Source: Bacteroidales bacterium
GTDB lineage: Bacteria; Bacteroidota; Bacteroidia; Bacteroidales; VadinHA17
Length of the DNA: 39,160 nt
Assembly (NCBI GenBank): GCA_017882345.1
Contig: JADGPT010000006.1
Coordinates: 1 to 39,160 of the forward strand
Direction of reading: 5' to 3'
Shown here: piece by piece, positions 1,744 to 37,521 of the stretch
Numbering within the stretch: the first letter of the stretch is position 1
How the letters are laid out: the number at the start of each line of letters is the position of its first letter
Translations under genes and position numbers: made by a program
The notes under the pieces: generated by a model
Databases searched by the model: none
What the model was told of the DNA's origin: nothing
Seen by the model: the letters and a program-made list of their open reading frames with translations, nothing else

Positions 1744-4317
1744 ATGAAAAACAAAAATGAAATTACCCGTCGCCGGTTTATTACGAATTCCACTTTGGCC
1801 GGTATAGGGACAATCGGCTCTGCCAATCTCATAACTTCCTGTAAAAGTAATAGCACTGAACCGGAGAGGAAAAATAAGACGGAGCTACATGATTATAATA
1901 GTTTCTATTCAGGAAAATATCTTGATCGTATTGCATTTCCTATTGGAGGGATTGGTGCAGGAATGTTCTGTTTAGAAGGTGCCGGAGGGATATCGCATAT
2001 GTCTATACGTAACCATCCGGATGTTTTTAATGAGCCATGCATGTTTGGAGCAATATCTGTGAAAGGACTGAAAAATGGAACCAAAGTACTGGAAGGTCAG
2101 GTTCCGGACTGGAAGAAATTCGGACAGCCGGATTCAGCAAATGGATCAGGGGGGGCAAGTTATGGATTTCCGAGGTTTCAGATTGCAAAATTTACTGCCA
2201 GGTTTCCGTTTGCTGTTATAGAGCTGAAGGATGACGATATTCCGATTGAGATACAGATTACAGGATGGAGTCCTTTCATCCCAACTGATGCTGACAATTC
2301 AAGTCTTCCGCTTGGAGCATTGGAATATTCCTTCAAAAATACCGGTACTTCAAAGATTGAAGCTGTTTTCTCTTACAATTCCAGGAATTTTATGAGCCAG
2401 GCAAATGGTTCAAATAGAATACTCCCTGTCTCAAATGGATTTATTCTTTCCGAAGAAGGGGTAAAAGATAAACCTGAGACTAAAGGAGATTTTGCGATAT
2501 TCACCAGTGAGCCAGGTACAATCGTTGATCATTGCTGGTTCAGAGGAGGATGGTGGGATCCCCTTACAATTACCTGGGAAACAATAATAAAAGGTGAAAC
2601 ACGACAGAATGATCCGGTAGAAATAGGGGCACCCGGCGCATCCTTATTCATTCCCTTAACGTTGAATCCGGGAGAAACAAGGTTGATAAAGATAATGATG
2701 GCCTGGTATATACCCGATACGGATCTTAAGTACGGAAAAGATTCGGAAGAAAAAGGTGAGGAGAAGTGCGATCAGGCAAATTGTTCCTGTAAAGATCCAT
2801 ATTATAAACCCTGGTATTCCGGGAAATTTAAAGGGGTAGATGAAGTTATAAGCTTCTGGAAAACAAGTTATACTGATCTTCGTAATAAGTCCGTATTATT
2901 TAAAGACTCTTTCTATAAAACTACACTTCCTGTCGAAGTAATAGAAGCTATTGCTGCCAATCTCGCGATACTTAAATCTCCAACTGTGTTAAGACAACCT
3001 GACGGGAAGCTATGGAGCTGGGAAGGATGTGGCGACAACTCGGGCTGCTGTGCAGGTTCCTGTACACACGTCTGGAACTACGCACAGGCAATCCCACACC
3101 TCTTTCCGAAACTTGAACGGACACTCCGGGAGACTGAGTTTTTACCAAGTCAGGACAAGGAAGGCCATCAGACTTTCAGATCTGCACTCCCAATAAGACC
3201 TATTGCCAGTAATTTCTATGCTGCTTCTGACGGGCAGCTCGGTGGAATAATGAAAATGTACCGCGACTGGAGGATAAGCGGGGATACCCAATGGTTGAAA
3301 AAAATGTACCCGAAGGTGGTAGAAAGTTTAGAATATTGTATCAGGACATGGGACCCAAAAATGACAGGGACTCTGGAGGAACCACACCATAATACTTATG
3401 ATATAGAATTCTGGGGTCCTGATGGTATGTGTACAAGTTTCTATCTGGGCGCATTAAAAGCCATCACTGAGATGGGGAAATTTCTTGGAGAAGATATTCA
3501 GAGCTATCAGTCCCTTTATGAAAAAGGCAGAAAAGCCATGGAGTCAGAACTATATGATGGTGAGTTCTTTATACAGAAAATTAAATGGAAGGGCTTAAAT
3601 GCCCCTGATCCTGTGGCAGCATCTAAAGGTGCCTGGAATACTGAATATTCAGAAGAGGCAAGAGAACTATTACAGAAAGAGGGACCAAAATATCAGTACG
3701 GTAAGGGATGCCTGTCTGACGGAGTTCTGGGAGTATGGATTTCTGAGGTGTGTGGTTTGAAAAATGTTATTGATCCCATTAAGGTTGCCAGCCATCTTAA
3801 ATCCGTATTTAAATACAATTTTAAATCCGATCTGTCTGATCATTCAAATCCCCAACGTCCTTCCTTTGCCCTTGGAAATGAAGGTGGCCTTCTTTTATGT
3901 ACCTGGCCTAAAGGAGAGATGCTTTCTCTGCCTTTCGTTTACAGCAATGAAGTCTGGACTGGTATCGAATATCAGGTTGCCTCTCACCTGATGCTTATTG
4001 GTGAAGTGGAGAAAGCGCTTGAGATAGTTCGTACTTGTCGCGACAGATACGATGGCAGAATCAGAAATCCATTTGATGAATATGAATGCGGACACTGGTA
4101 TGCCAGAGCTATGTCGAGTTATGGTATGTTACAGGGACTAACCGGAGTAAGATATGATGCCGTAACTCAGGAAATGTTAATAGATTCCAAGATTGGTGAC
4201 TTTATCAGTTTTATATCGACTGAAACAGGGTTCGGTAACATAGGTTTGAAAAATGGTAAGCCATTTCTGGAGACTGCTTATGGAGATATAACAGTGAAGA
4301 AATTCGTCATAAAATAG
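1744..4317 (+). CDS. GH116 family glycosidase (GBA2/DUF608 type), Tat-signal lipoprotein
   Basis: The ATG at 1744 is preferred over the longer frame from 1705 because it places a twin-arginine motif (RRRFI, residues 9-13) at the right distance from the N terminus. The signal also contains a lipobox-like LITSC with C33, so export by Tat and lipid anchoring are both possible. The N-terminal Glyco_hydr_116N domain starts with FPIGGIGAG and SIRNHPDVF; the C-terminal (alpha/alpha)6 DUF608 domain carries WSWEGCGDNSGCC followed by CTHVWNYAQ (about residues 420-450) and NTYDIEFWGPDG (about 547-558). These contain the conserved acidic residues of the family. GH116 enzymes hydrolyse beta-glucosides, glucosylceramide or beta-xylosides. 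In a xylan-rich neighbourhood a beta-xylosidase is plausible, but the sequence does not decide it. Length (857 aa) is normal. Confidence 0.85.
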   Translation: MKNKNEITRRRFITNSTLAGIGTIGSANLITSCKSNSTEPERKNKTELHDYNSFYSGKYLDRIAFPIGGIGAGMFCLEGAGGISHMSIRNHPDVFNEPCMFGAISVKGLKNGTKVLEGQVPDWKKFGQPDSANGSGGASYGFPRFQIAKFTARFPFAVIELKDDDIPIEIQITGWSPFIPTDADNSSLPLGALEYSFKNTGTSKIEAVFSYNSRNFMSQANGSNRILPVSNGFILSEEGVKDKPETKGDFAIFTSEPGTIVDHCWFRGGWWDPLTITWETIIKGETRQNDPVEIGAPGASLFIPLTLNPGETRLIKIMMAWYIPDTDLKYGKDSEEKGEEKCDQANCSCKDPYYKPWYSGKFKGVDEVISFWKTSYTDLRNKSVLFKDSFYKTTLPVEVIEAIAANLAILKSPTVLRQPDGKLWSWEGCGDNSGCCAGSCTHVWNYAQAIPHLFPKLERTLRETEFLPSQDKEGHQTFRSALPIRPIASNFYAASDGQLGGIMKMYRDWRISGDTQWLKKMYPKVVESLEYCIRTWDPKMTGTLEEPHHNTYDIEFWGPDGMCTSFYLGALKAITEMGKFLGEDIQSYQSLYEKGRKAMESELYDGEFFIQKIKWKGLNAPDPVAASKGAWNTEYSEEARELLQKEGPKYQYGKGCLSDGVLGVWISEVCGLKNVIDPIKVASHLKSVFKYNFKSDLSDHSNPQRPSFALGNEGGLLLCTWPKGEMLSLPFVYSNEVWTGIEYQVASHLMLIGEVEKALEIVRTCRDRYDGRIRNPFDEYECGHWYARAMSSYGMLQGLTGVRYDAVTQEMLIDSKIGDFISFISTETGFGNIGLKNGKPFLETAYGDITVKKFVIK

Positions 4318-34830: not shown

Positions 34831-34862
34831 TTTGGAAAGCTCGGATTTGAAATTTACTTTTG
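34831..34862 (+). promoter_or_regulatory. Promoter of the metal-transport operon
   Basis: TTTG (34831-34834), a 20-base spacer, then TACTTTTG (34855-34862): both Bacteroidota elements match exactly. Transcription would start about 34869, giving a leader of roughly 120 bases that contains the structured element at 34891-34995. Confidence 0.6.
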
Positions 34863-34890
34863 TTCGCGAAATCAATTTTGAGAATTTAAT

Positions 34891-34995
34891 GGACGGTGAC
34901 CCGGCGAATATATTAATCTTAACCCTGATCTAGGAGGATAACCGGTACTGTTGGTCACATCCTTCTTTGTCAGTAAAAGCAAGGAGGTGACAATG
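34891..34995 (+). promoter_or_regulatory. Candidate translational riboswitch: pseudoknot versus Shine-Dalgarno hairpin
   Basis: Structure OFF: GTCACATCCTT (34954-34964) pairs with AAGGAGGTGAC (34981-34991) in 10 of 11 positions. CTTT (34965-34968) also pairs with AAAG (34976-34979), so the Shine-Dalgarno sequence is locked in a hairpin of about 14 pairs. Structure ON: GTGACC (34896-34901) pairs with GGTCAC (34953-34958), and AGGAGGAT (34932-34939) pairs with ATCCTTCT (34959-34966, one G-U). The two helices cross, making an H-type pseudoknot with directly abutting helices, and free the Shine-Dalgarno. The two states cannot coexist. I see no match to Mg2+ M-box, Mn2+ yybP-ykoY, NiCo or fluoride consensus from memory. 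The operon encodes a metal sensor and transporter, so a divalent-metal ligand is the natural guess. Confidence 0.6.
34981..34990 (+). promoter_or_regulatory. Perfect Shine-Dalgarno site, fixes the start at 34993
   Basis: AAGGAGGTGA is fully complementary to the canonical 16S rRNA 3' end and stands 2 bases before the ATG at 34993 (GGAGG to ATG spacing 5). Bacteroidota generally do not use such sites, so its presence inside a sequestering hairpin is notable. Confidence 0.8.
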
Positions 34996-36267
34996 ACATC
35001 ACTCACGACGTTTTATTTAAGCGGAATAATCGGTAAAGTAGCTTTTGGTGCCGATGGTGACGCTATTGGTACAATAAAAGATCTGCTTCTTAACACTATG
35101 CCTTCGGGAAACAGTGACCCAAACCAACAGCTTGTAACAGGAGTAAGGTTAAAAATACAAAAGGAAATCAGGTTTTATTCCTTTAAAAGTTTTATTGTTA
35201 CAAAAGCAAGAGAAGTGCTTAACGTTACCTGTACAGCTCTGGTTGAGCTTGGTGCAGAGGAAATCAATAATGGTCTTCTGCTTGTCGAAAATATTCTCGA
35301 CAAACAAATAGTGGATCTGAATGGCCGCAAGCTGGTCAGGGTTAATGATGTGAGGCTTGCAACGCTGCCAACCGGAACATTCGCCATTGCTGTAGATATT
35401 GGGATTGAAGGTCTCTTGCGCAGAATTGGAATCGCATCACCGATAAAGCGAATACTTTCCATTTTTAAAATAAATATACCCGCTAAATTTATCCTCTGGG
35501 ATGATGTTCAGGCTATCGACCATTCAAATCTTAATATCAGACTTTCAAAAAGTTATGCAAAACTGCATACTCTTCATCCATCGGATATCGCTGATATCCT
35601 TGAAGATATGGGTAAGAAATCGAGCATGTCAGTATTTGCTTCACTCGATGAAGAACAAGCTGCTGATGTTCTTGAAGAGCTTGAGGCCGATGCTCAGATA
35701 CATATTCTTGAAAACCTTCCCGTAAACAAAGCCGCAGATGTGCTTGAAAAGATGCCTGCCGACGAGGTCGCTGATATACTCGATGAGCTCGGAGATGAGA
35801 AAGCCGAAATATTGTTGAAGGAGATGGACAGGGAGTCTTCTCAGGAGGTAAGGGAACTTCTTGAATATGATGATGACAGGGTGGGAAGTATTATGACAAC
35901 TGATTTTCTTTCTTTCAGTGCGACTACGACGGTAGCAGAAGTACTTGTTGAATTGAGAGCCAAAAAACCCGAGTCTGCAGAACTATATAATATGTTCGTT
36001 GTAGAATCAAACGATGAGTTAATCGGAACATTTAATTTGCGCGATCTTGTGGTTTCAGAACCGAATGTGAGTGTCAGTGGCATAATGAAGTCAGGGCCTG
36101 TTTACCTATTCGATGAGCAGAAAGTAGGCGCAATTGCCAGGATAGTCTCCAAATACAATCTACTGGCTGTCCCGGTAGTTGATCAGAATTATCAGTTACA
36201 GGGTATGGTTGTTATTGACGACGTTATTGAAGACCTTATTCGTAAACGGAGGACAAATAAGAGATAA
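34993..36267 (+). CDS. MgtE-like cytosolic sensor protein: PRC-barrel, MgtE_N and CBS pair, no membrane domain
   Basis: A 424-residue soluble protein. The perfect Shine-Dalgarno fixes the start at 34993; a TTG frame from 34951 is rejected. Residues about 8-90 and 100-178 look like two PRC-barrel-type beta domains (GKVAFGADGDAIGTIKDLLL; GRKLVRVNDVRL). Residues about 195-295 are the MgtE N-terminal helical superhelix (HPSDIADILEDM, AADVLEELEADA, AADVLEKMPADEVADILDEL). Residues about 298-418 are two CBS domains starting at VGSIMTTDFLSF. In MgtE these parts sense Mg2+ and gate the channel, but here the channel domain is absent. The adjoining gene, whose ATG directly follows this TAA, encodes an NRAMP-type transporter. 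The protein is probably its Mg2+-sensing regulatory subunit. Confidence 0.85.
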   Translation: MTSLTTFYLSGIIGKVAFGADGDAIGTIKDLLLNTMPSGNSDPNQQLVTGVRLKIQKEIRFYSFKSFIVTKAREVLNVTCTALVELGAEEINNGLLLVENILDKQIVDLNGRKLVRVNDVRLATLPTGTFAIAVDIGIEGLLRRIGIASPIKRILSIFKINIPAKFILWDDVQAIDHSNLNIRLSKSYAKLHTLHPSDIADILEDMGKKSSMSVFASLDEEQAADVLEELEADAQIHILENLPVNKAADVLEKMPADEVADILDELGDEKAEILLKEMDRESSQEVRELLEYDDDRVGSIMTTDFLSFSATTTVAEVLVELRAKKPESAELYNMFVVESNDELIGTFNLRDLVVSEPNVSVSGIMKSGPVYLFDEQKVGAIARIVSKYNLLAVPVVDQNYQLQGMVVIDDVIEDLIRKRRTNKR

Positions 36268-37521
36268 ATGTCGGAGTCAGGGTTCAGTATAAAAAAACTT
36301 CTTAAACAGGTTGCAATCTTTTTTGCAATACTTGGGCCGGGGATTATCACCGGGAGTGTCGATAATGACGCGGGAGGGATCACAACTTACTCAGTAGCCG
36401 GAGCAATATATGGTTATGGGCTTATCTGGACTCTTATTCCATCTTTTGTAGTTCTTCTGATCATTCAGGAGATGAATGCAAGGATGGGAATTGTTACAGG
36501 GAAAGGACTTGCTGATTTGATCCGCGAAAATGCCGGAGTAAAAGTGACTTTTTTCATATTTATCGGGCTACTATTCGCTGATATTGGAAACACAACAACG
36601 GAATTTGCCGGAGTAGCCGGTAGTATGGAGGTATTTGGAATATCCAAATATATTTCTGTACCGGTTGCAGCATTTATGGTCTGGATACTGGTAGTAAAAG
36701 GAAACTACAAGATTGCCGAACGTATTTTTCTGATATTCAGTGTGTCGCTGTTAACTTATGTTATCTCGGCGATGATGGGCAAACCTCACTGGGCTGAAAT
36801 AGGCTCTTCTATTATTCATCCCAGGATGGATGTAAGCACTAAGGGTATTGCCATGGTGATTGGAATAATCGGAACCACTATAGCTCCCTGGATGCAATTT
36901 TATATGCAGTCTTCAGTAATTGAAAAAGGGCTGAAGATGAAAAATTATACTTATACATTAATTGATATCGTTGTTGGATGTGTAGCAACTGTTGTTGTTG
37001 CATTTTTTATTATTGTTGCATGTGCATCAACACTTCATGTAAACGGTATTCAAATTGGAGAAGCAAAGGATGCCGCCCTGGCTCTCAAACCGCTAGCCGG
37101 TAATCTGGCTTCGCAGGTATTTGCTTTTGGATTATTTATCGCATCTATTTTCTCTGCCACAATTCTCCCTCTTGCAACTGCTTTTTACGTATGTGAAGCT
37201 TTTGGCTTTGAAGCAGGTATTGATAAAAAATGGAACGATGCAAAAGAGTTTTACACTTTATACACGGGTATCCTTGTAGTTGCCGCCATTATAATACTAT
37301 TGCCCAATGCTCCCTTGATAAAGATTTCTTTATGGTCCCAGGTTTTAAATGGGTTGCTTCTTCCAGTCGTCCTTGTCTGCATGATAATTCTTGTTAATAA
37401 CAAAAAGATTATGGGAGAACATGTTAACAAACCTATTACTAATTTCATAGGTTGGACAGCAATTGTAATATTGATAGGTCTTTCAATAACCCTTCTTATA
37501 CTTCCTTTTTTCAAAAGGTAA
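36268..37521 (+). CDS. NRAMP-family divalent metal transporter with altered metal site (probable Mg2+ type)
   Basis: A 417-residue membrane protein with about 11 transmembrane helices. Canonical NRAMPs coordinate Mn2+/Fe2+ through DPGN in helix 1 and MPH in helix 6. Here helix 1 has VDNDAGG (residues 31-37) and helix 6 has TTIAPWMQF (203-211), so the Met ligand for soft metals and the His of MPH are missing. Replacement of the Met is the hallmark of the NRAMP-related Mg2+ transporter (NRMT) clade. The partner gene with MgtE_N and CBS domains supports Mg2+. The start codon directly abuts the preceding stop, so the two are translationally coupled and both depend on the structured leader. Mn2+ or other divalent ions cannot be excluded from sequence alone. 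Confidence 0.85.
   Translation: MSESGFSIKKLLKQVAIFFAILGPGIITGSVDNDAGGITTYSVAGAIYGYGLIWTLIPSFVVLLIIQEMNARMGIVTGKGLADLIRENAGVKVTFFIFIGLLFADIGNTTTEFAGVAGSMEVFGISKYISVPVAAFMVWILVVKGNYKIAERIFLIFSVSLLTYVISAMMGKPHWAEIGSSIIHPRMDVSTKGIAMVIGIIGTTIAPWMQFYMQSSVIEKGLKMKNYTYTLIDIVVGCVATVVVAFFIIVACASTLHVNGIQIGEAKDAALALKPLAGNLASQVFAFGLFIASIFSATILPLATAFYVCEAFGFEAGIDKKWNDAKEFYTLYTGILVVAAIIILLPNAPLIKISLWSQVLNGLLLPVVLVCMIILVNNKKIMGEHVNKPITNFIGWTAIVILIGLSITLLILPFFKR

Follow-up and report, generated by a model that had tools for sequence, protein, structure and literature searches.

A short open reading frame (ORF) with an acidic start lies upstream of a metal-transport operon in the stretch of Bacteroidales DNA analysed here (39,160 nucleotides; hereafter the window), and its end can form one of two competing hairpins that free or hide the Shine-Dalgarno (SD) sequence of the first operon gene. 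We consider it likely that this leader is a translational attenuator, in which the ribosome making the acidic leader peptide would be destabilised at low Mg2+. Comparison of related sequences supports the existence of the ORF and its conservation as coding sequence, the pair of competing hairpins, and the setting before genes for Mg2+ transporters. That the peptide gauges Mg2+ is the most likely reading, given the sequence pattern and its likeness to mgtQ and mgtL.

In the proposed mechanism the sensor would be the ribosome making the leader peptide, whose N-terminal Asp-Asp/Glu-x-Pro stretch would destabilise it at low Mg2+. With enough Mg2+, the ribosome would reach the stop codon at 34931-34933 and cover the 5' arm of an antisequester hairpin; the anti-SD strand could then pair with the SD, and the operon would be off. 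With little Mg2+, the ribosome would drop off around codons 3-6 and leave the 5' arm free. This arm, transcribed first, would capture the anti-SD strand and leave the SD open, and both the MgtE_N-CBS protein and the NRMT importer would be made. The same kind of peptide device is predicted before CorA genes and, in some genomes, before full-length MgtE genes in the same order of Bacteroidota.

The leader reading frame and its conservation

A sequence-only reading of the locus had proposed a ligand-binding riboswitch with an H-type pseudoknot, built from GTGACC (34896-34901), the SD look-alike AGGAGGAT (34932-34939), GGTCAC (34953-34958) and the anti-SD sequence ATCCTTCT (34959-34966). All four strands are present at these coordinates, and the mutually exclusive antisequester/sequester translation switch that it placed before a metal-transport operon was correctly recognised. 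Not noted there was a short ORF that overlaps its two upstream strands and whose stop codon (34931-34933) overlaps the SD look-alike. The features of the locus, all on the forward strand, are as follows.

34831-34862, forward: Bacteroidota-type promoter, with TTTG at 34831-34834, a 20-nt gap and TACTTTTG at 34855-34862 (from sequence)
34889-34933, forward: leader-peptide ORF, ATG to TAG, peptide MDGDPANILILTLI (from coding conservation, frame test and tree)
34925-34939, forward: 5' arm of the antisequester, holding the ORF end, the stop codon and the SD look-alike (from covariation)
34941-34955, forward: inner hairpin of the antisequester, 34941-34945 with 34951-34955 (from folding)
34954-34991, forward: SD-sequestering hairpin, 34954-34958 and 34960-34964 with 34987-34991 and 34981-34985 (from the minimum free energy fold of the window)
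34959-34973, forward: anti-SD strand, forming the 3' side of the antisequester and also some of the 5' side of the sequester (from folds and covariation)
34981-34989, forward: SD AAGGAGGTG of the first operon gene, with its ATG at 34993 (from sequence)
34993-36267, forward: PRC-barrel/MgtE_N/CBS protein of 424 aa, a soluble MgtE-like cytoplasmic domain (Pfam)
36268-37521, forward: NRAMP-related Mg2+ transporter (NRMT-type) of 417 aa (Pfam Nramp)

The TTTG and TACTTTTG elements are named after the Bacteroidota promoter consensus. The stop codon of the MgtE_N-CBS gene directly abuts the NRMT start codon (36265-36270), so translation of the two genes may be coupled, and a single switch may control both.

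Relatives of the first operon gene were collected from genomes of the genus, the order and the phylum and from named genome contigs, of which the best 80 were kept (MAGs of Bacteroidales and Bacteroidota for the most part). The resulting 134 loci gave 102 distinct leaders, after 24 pairs with an identical 120-nt upstream region were merged and eight loci with truncated starts or less than 150 nt upstream were left out (L026, L027, L088, L092, L093, L106, L120 and L122). A regular expression for an ORF with an acidic start and a proline matched 94 of the 102, across homologues 46 to 100% identical. Two further loci from the phylum and the leader L023, which starts with ATA, bring these to the set of 97 leaders used below. 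TAnnTTTG occurs within 80 nt 5' of the upstream ORF in 78 of the 97, and a second TTTG stands 17-25 nt further 5' in 31.

Among these relatives the ORF mostly begins MD[D/E]xPA. Asp2 is present in 96 and Pro5 in all 97 leaders, the third residue is acidic (Asp or Glu) in 89, and the fourth is Gly or Asp in 83. The third codon positions vary, and the invariant proline is written CCT in 48 leaders, CCG in 43, CCC in five and CCA in one. Over codons 2-6, the synonymous share of single-base codon differences is 0.618 in frame versus 0.261 and 0.216 in the shifted frames. A FastTree tree built from 96 of the 97 proteins requires 19 or more codon changes at codon 5, none of which alters the amino acid, and at least seven at codon 2, with one amino-acid change. 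Taken together, the variable third positions, the in-frame synonymous excess and the tree counts identify the conserved 5' block as a peptide-coding sequence, translation itself being predicted. This codon-by-codon conservation counts against the ligand-binding riboswitch of the sequence-only reading. The ORF is 9 to 23 residues long and only loosely conserved after codon 6.

The ORF is absent outright from seven of the 102 NRMT-operon leaders; in an eighth (L023) the same frame has ATA replacing ATG. No leader ORF was found at L039, nor such a leader at L134, a record labelled Deltaproteobacteria, and at L132 a promoter-like TACTTTTG lies merely 40-50 nt before the gene. The regular expression found no match at the distant homologues L138-L154. 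Four loci labelled Akkermansiaceae or Verrucomicrobia (L113, L124, L125 and L126) have GC-rich upstream regions with no such leader and an operon gene 59-61% identical to that of the window, which suggests transfer of the operon without its regulator, or mis-binning.

Two competing hairpins and a modelled ribosome

In the antisequester, the ORF end pairs over 13-15 bp with the anti-SD strand. In the window this pairing (34925-34939 with 34959-34973) is longer than had been described from the sequence and is accompanied by the inner hairpin. The anti-SD arm has an upstream pairing in 96 of the 97 leaders. Against dinucleotide shuffles (60 for each of the 97 leaders), the median z was -2.55 for the antisequester region and -2.50 for the sequester region, and the two alternative anti-SD pairings thus exceed chance. 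The window leader alone folds no better than its own shuffles (z -0.31).

Covariation was scored in two MAFFT alignments, of 43 closer relatives and, separately, of 33 more distant leaders among the 97, the 21 most divergent being left out. The helices scored were written by hand after folds of single sequences, a choice that favours them over slid controls. The antisequester changed on both sides in 13 of 18 pairs in the first alignment and in nine of 13 in the second, and in both its covariation score was reached by none of 500 shuffles, a control that ignores the relatedness of the leaders. Its inner hairpin was paired in 78.1% of cells, with both-side changes in two of five pairs. The sequester helix was paired in 85.4% of cells and showed little covariation, its score being reached by 73 of 500 shuffles among the 43 leaders and by 24 of 500 among the 33. 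This small variation presumably reflects the fixed SD, whose GGAGG columns are invariant or almost so in the 43-leader alignment. RNAalifold on the MAFFT alignments returned a weak or empty consensus.

The helix of GTGACC with GGTCAC, which would close the proposed pseudoknot, was paired in 62.4% of cells versus 62.5% in shuffles, and its covariation score was reached by 167 of 500 shuffles. With pairing and covariation both at shuffle level, this pseudoknot was rejected. Of the covariation expected for three helices in homologous leaders, the part concerning the antisequester was borne out, that of the sequester only slightly, and that of the pseudoknot helix not at all.

The reach of a ribosome was modelled as 15 nt on each side. 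Placed at the stop codon, it would mask half or more of the antisequester partners in 79 of the 96 leaders with the upstream pairing, and less than half in the other 17; placed at codon 5, it would mask that much in none of the 96. In a second calculation, only the RNA downstream of the ribosome was allowed to fold. Median SD openness was then 0.182 after loss at codon 5 versus 0.044 with the ribosome at the stop (n = 97), being higher after early loss in 60 leaders and lower in nine (Wilcoxon p 1.7e-10, an optimistic value because the leaders are related). In this model, complete translation of the leader would correspond to the off state and abortive translation to the on state. Folded separately, the antisequester has the greater stability of the two hairpins in 79 of 97 leaders. 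In the free full leader at equilibrium the SD is mostly paired (median openness 0.135), so the on state would need kinetic capture during transcription, or ribosome binding.

Predicted Mg2+ transporters downstream and the likely signal

Among solved chains, the window NRAMP is closest to 7QIA/7QIC/7QJI/7QJJ (E 3.6e-110), MntH chains reaching 6.5e-25 at best. We take the 7QIA chain to be the Eggerthella NRMT (EleNRMT). NCBIfam returned only generic Nramp/MntH models for the window protein. It carries DAGG and TTIA, which fit the signature DxxG (helix 1) and TxxA/T (helix 6) of Mg2+-transporting NRMTs (PMC8806188). By this signature and its nearest chain, the downstream NRAMP looks like the Mg2+-transporting NRMT type, and most NRMT genes adjoin a gene for an MgtE cytoplasmic domain (PMC4072509).

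CorA homologues were found in 61 of the 295 genomes of the order, and the upstream regions of 60 were inspected, one fragment (G283) being left out. Acidic leader peptides starting MDD, MDE, MEE or MDG precede 50 of these 60 genes (27 of the first 30 loci and 23 of the second 30); the other ten have no acidic leader. In the first 30 loci the regular expression flagged 20, including L237 by way of another ORF, and the rest were recognised by eye; in the second 30, leaders were picked by eye from the ORF listing. Proline stands at position 4 or 5 in 23 of the 50 peptides, and 13 contain none. Seventeen loci (L259, L261-L267, L269, L274, L222, L235, L237-L239, L241 and L243) carry leaders of the type of MDDYHSEY, MDDYHPDS or MDDYHADIFRCN, each followed by a stop codon. 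Among these very short leaders several are without proline, and some have only eight residues; they may be the sensor in its shortest form.

The fold test was applied to the 23 of the first 30 CorA loci with an ORF 70-140 nt upstream; at L214, L215, L217 and L218 the leader ORF lies 161-265 nt upstream. In these 23, the two competing hairpins had median z values of -2.15 and -3.20. Median SD openness was 0.287 after early drop-off versus 0.105 with the ribosome at the stop, higher in 14 leaders and lower in three (p 0.003).

Full-length MgtE genes have an acidic leader ORF at three of 30 loci, namely MDDVPGYIKQVY, MEEDPYRSYSREKETMC and MDEGPYYSRRKLNIKH at L289, L290 and L301, each up to its stop codon. 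Six loci had been flagged, three of which look unrelated, and 27 of the 30 (L291, L312 and L313 among them) are without an acidic leader. P-type ATPases, sought with MgtA, were rejected as further targets, the ORF occurring at none of 15 loci; this is a weak negative, with only four loci over the MgtA cut-off, one of them (L245) with a broken start. Since the same kind of peptide stands before unrelated Mg2+ transporters, the sensor is most likely the ribosome translating the leader peptide. A metal is the likely signal, as the earlier reading had it.

An attenuator of this anatomy might nevertheless answer to something other than Mg2+: the charging of proline or aspartate tRNA, ATP through an EttA-like ABC-F factor, EF-P activity, or Mn2+ acting through translation. 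We regard this as unlikely. The invariant proline at codon 5 of the 97 NRMT-operon leaders would suit such a signal, and in E. coli EttA acts on MgtL and on early acidic residues (PMC11282234); an NRMT relative from Acidobacterium mainly rescued transport of manganese, fully so, and growth at low magnesium only partly (PMC4072509). However, what the peptides have in common is acidic residues, not a run of one amino acid; the 13 proline-free peptides among the 50 CorA leaders speak against a proline signal, and the targets belong to three unrelated families of Mg2+ transporters. This last point also bears on the idea of a constitutive upstream ORF that damps or couples translation and senses nothing. 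Upstream ORFs with SD hairpins can, we infer, simply tune expression, yet three observations make mere tuning very improbable: strong purifying selection acts on the acidic N-terminus while the peptides range from 9 to 23 residues, acidic leaders stand before several unrelated Mg2+ importers, and covariation supports the alternative hairpin.

We give equally little credence to a metal-binding riboswitch with the upstream strand and the pseudoknot as its aptamer. A conserved 5' block ahead of a switching SD hairpin is what such a device might look like, and in C. acetobutylicum a related operon is preceded by an M-box (PMC4072509). Against it stand the codon-by-codon conservation of that block, a pseudoknot helix without covariation and the searches of Rfam. 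In the window these gave no match at gathering scores, the M-box being among the families not found; at relaxed E-values only snR45 (E 7.4) and mir-7094 (E 2.1) appeared, weak matches to non-bacterial families. No match at gathering scores appeared in 20 related loci either, and known families (M-box, mgtA leader, yybP-ykoY, NiCo and others) were rejected, in agreement with the view that no known class has this arrangement. By eye, the two alignments contain no aptamer-like conserved block beyond the ORF start and the SD region. The leader is probably not a riboswitch.

The closest counterpart of the proposed attenuator is mgtQ of the Salmonella mgtCBR operon, a very short acidic ORF (Asp2/Glu5) with mutually exclusive stem-loops, one of which hides the ribosome-binding site (RBS) of the Mg2+ transporter gene mgtB and controls its translation (PMC8092293). 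In that leader, stem 2:3 prevails over 1:2 and 3:4 when a ribosome occupies region 1, and poor translation of the ORF raises that of the transporter (PMC8092293), as is predicted for the Bacteroidales leader. Whereas mgtQ lies inside its operon, between mgtC and mgtB (PMC8092293), the Bacteroidales element is at the 5' end; its peptide is MD[D/E]xPA, its stop codon falls in or near the antisequester arm, and its genes are NRMT, CorA or MgtE. The mgtL leader of E. coli and Salmonella mgtA shares the N-terminal acidic/proline motif, in this case EPDP, at which ribosomes drop off at low Mg2+, efficient translation of the leader keeping the transporter off (PMC11282234, PMC11552253); both behaviours are predicted here. 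Control by mgtL is, however, through Rho-dependent transcription termination (PMC11282234, PMC11552253), whereas the Bacteroidales anatomy is translational, by SD sequestration, with other peptides and genes. A pair of early acidic residues is often insufficient by itself in E. coli (PMC11282234), which weighs against the attenuator proposed here.

The corL ORF, 5' of enteric corA, is likewise short, responds to Mg2+ and is translated inversely to corA expression; it differs in being Rho-dependent, in its UUG start in E. coli and in having fewer acidic and proline residues than mgtL (PMC11552253). The Bacteroidales CorA leaders, unlike corL, mostly start MDD or MDE. The same type of operon, an MgtE cytoplasmic-domain gene with NRMT, is in Clostridium under the M-box, an Mg2+-binding riboswitch (PMC4072509); in Bacteroidales, where an Mg2+ response of the leader is predicted, a translated peptide seems to replace that RNA.

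Like leaders of the mgtL/mgtQ type, the Bacteroidales leader has acidic and proline residues near the start of a short, putatively translated ORF, mutually exclusive RNA structures that overlap the ORF, and downstream genes that are by sequence predicted Mg2+ transporters (NRMT, CorA); its RBS-hiding helix covaries weakly. By anatomy it would work as mgtQ and mgtL do. Because the peptides are very short and the hosts and genes differ, no common descent with either is claimed. Membership of the class of Mg2+-dependent ribosome destabilisation hinges on an Mg2+ response, and by its anatomy the leader is a candidate member.

Titles and abstracts of the open-access literature yielded no RNA or peptide device for Mg2+ control of importers in Bacteroidota. 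A gammaproteobacterial corA motif has been described (PMC6429828), and short ORFs in long 5' untranslated regions of B. thetaiotaomicron have been mentioned (PMC7366714), with no device of the Bacteroidales type in the portions of either account at hand. We lean towards the view that these leaders make up a large and seemingly undescribed class of Bacteroidales Mg2+ sensors that act through the nascent peptide, interchangeable modules that stand before genes of the three unrelated importers NRMT, CorA and MgtE with their own translational switches. Its peptide types would, on balance, comprise MD[D/E]xPA, MDEGPYH, MDDYH without proline, and MDDSNPR. If this is true, ribosome destabilisation as an Mg2+ gauge is no enteric peculiarity, proline is dispensable in the code, and several importer families of Bacteroidales have the ribosome itself as their Mg2+ sensor. 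Dozens of natural peptide variants would then form a library of N-terminal sequences causing ribosome drop-off at low Mg2+; which sequences do so is a question opened by the E. coli work.

Pattern scans in the order and the phylum

Across the phylum, the strict ORF pattern matched in 24 of 395 genomes. Most matches were viewed as match strings only, and the one in G487 is the sole recognised transporter leader; those in G140 and G515 were inspected and are not transporter leaders. In the window's own genome, ten pattern rows correspond to nine sites; the window leader is the one clear case among them. On another contig of that genome (L320 on C32, near 1529), a short ORF encoding MEEDPSRHNSIYGLIYCMKRSC before its stop codon has an acidic start with proline; neither a gene start nor a switch was seen in the adjoining stretch.

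In the 1.47 million nt of loci L001-L134 (both strands, loci partly redundant), the ORF pattern had 112 matches, and all but three belong to leader peptides in the counts above. One leader, at a locus excluded because of a gap, accounts for two of the three; the remaining match stands before a CorA gene in L104. This CorA gene shares its contig with the NRMT operon, is encoded on the other strand and has its own MDDHPAEIKNLN leader, ending in a stop codon, on the minus strand near 3395 of the reverse complement.

When the ORF was combined with an upstream TTTG, this DNA pattern was found at 42 distinct sites in 41 of the 295 genomes of the order. Nineteen are leaders of the NRMT operon, six precede CorA-like genes, which led to the survey of CorA upstream regions described above, and one precedes a gene for an OprB-type porin. 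At the 13 of the other 16 sites that were inspected (all except G210, G265 and G180), no Mg2+ transporter gene was seen by eye to follow. The porin site (L210) is a second leader, MDEGPATRLLTVSMER with its stop codon, on the minus strand before the OprB-family gene at 2232-3611, in a genome (G099) that also has an NRMT leader, a possible sign that the regulon includes an outer-membrane route.
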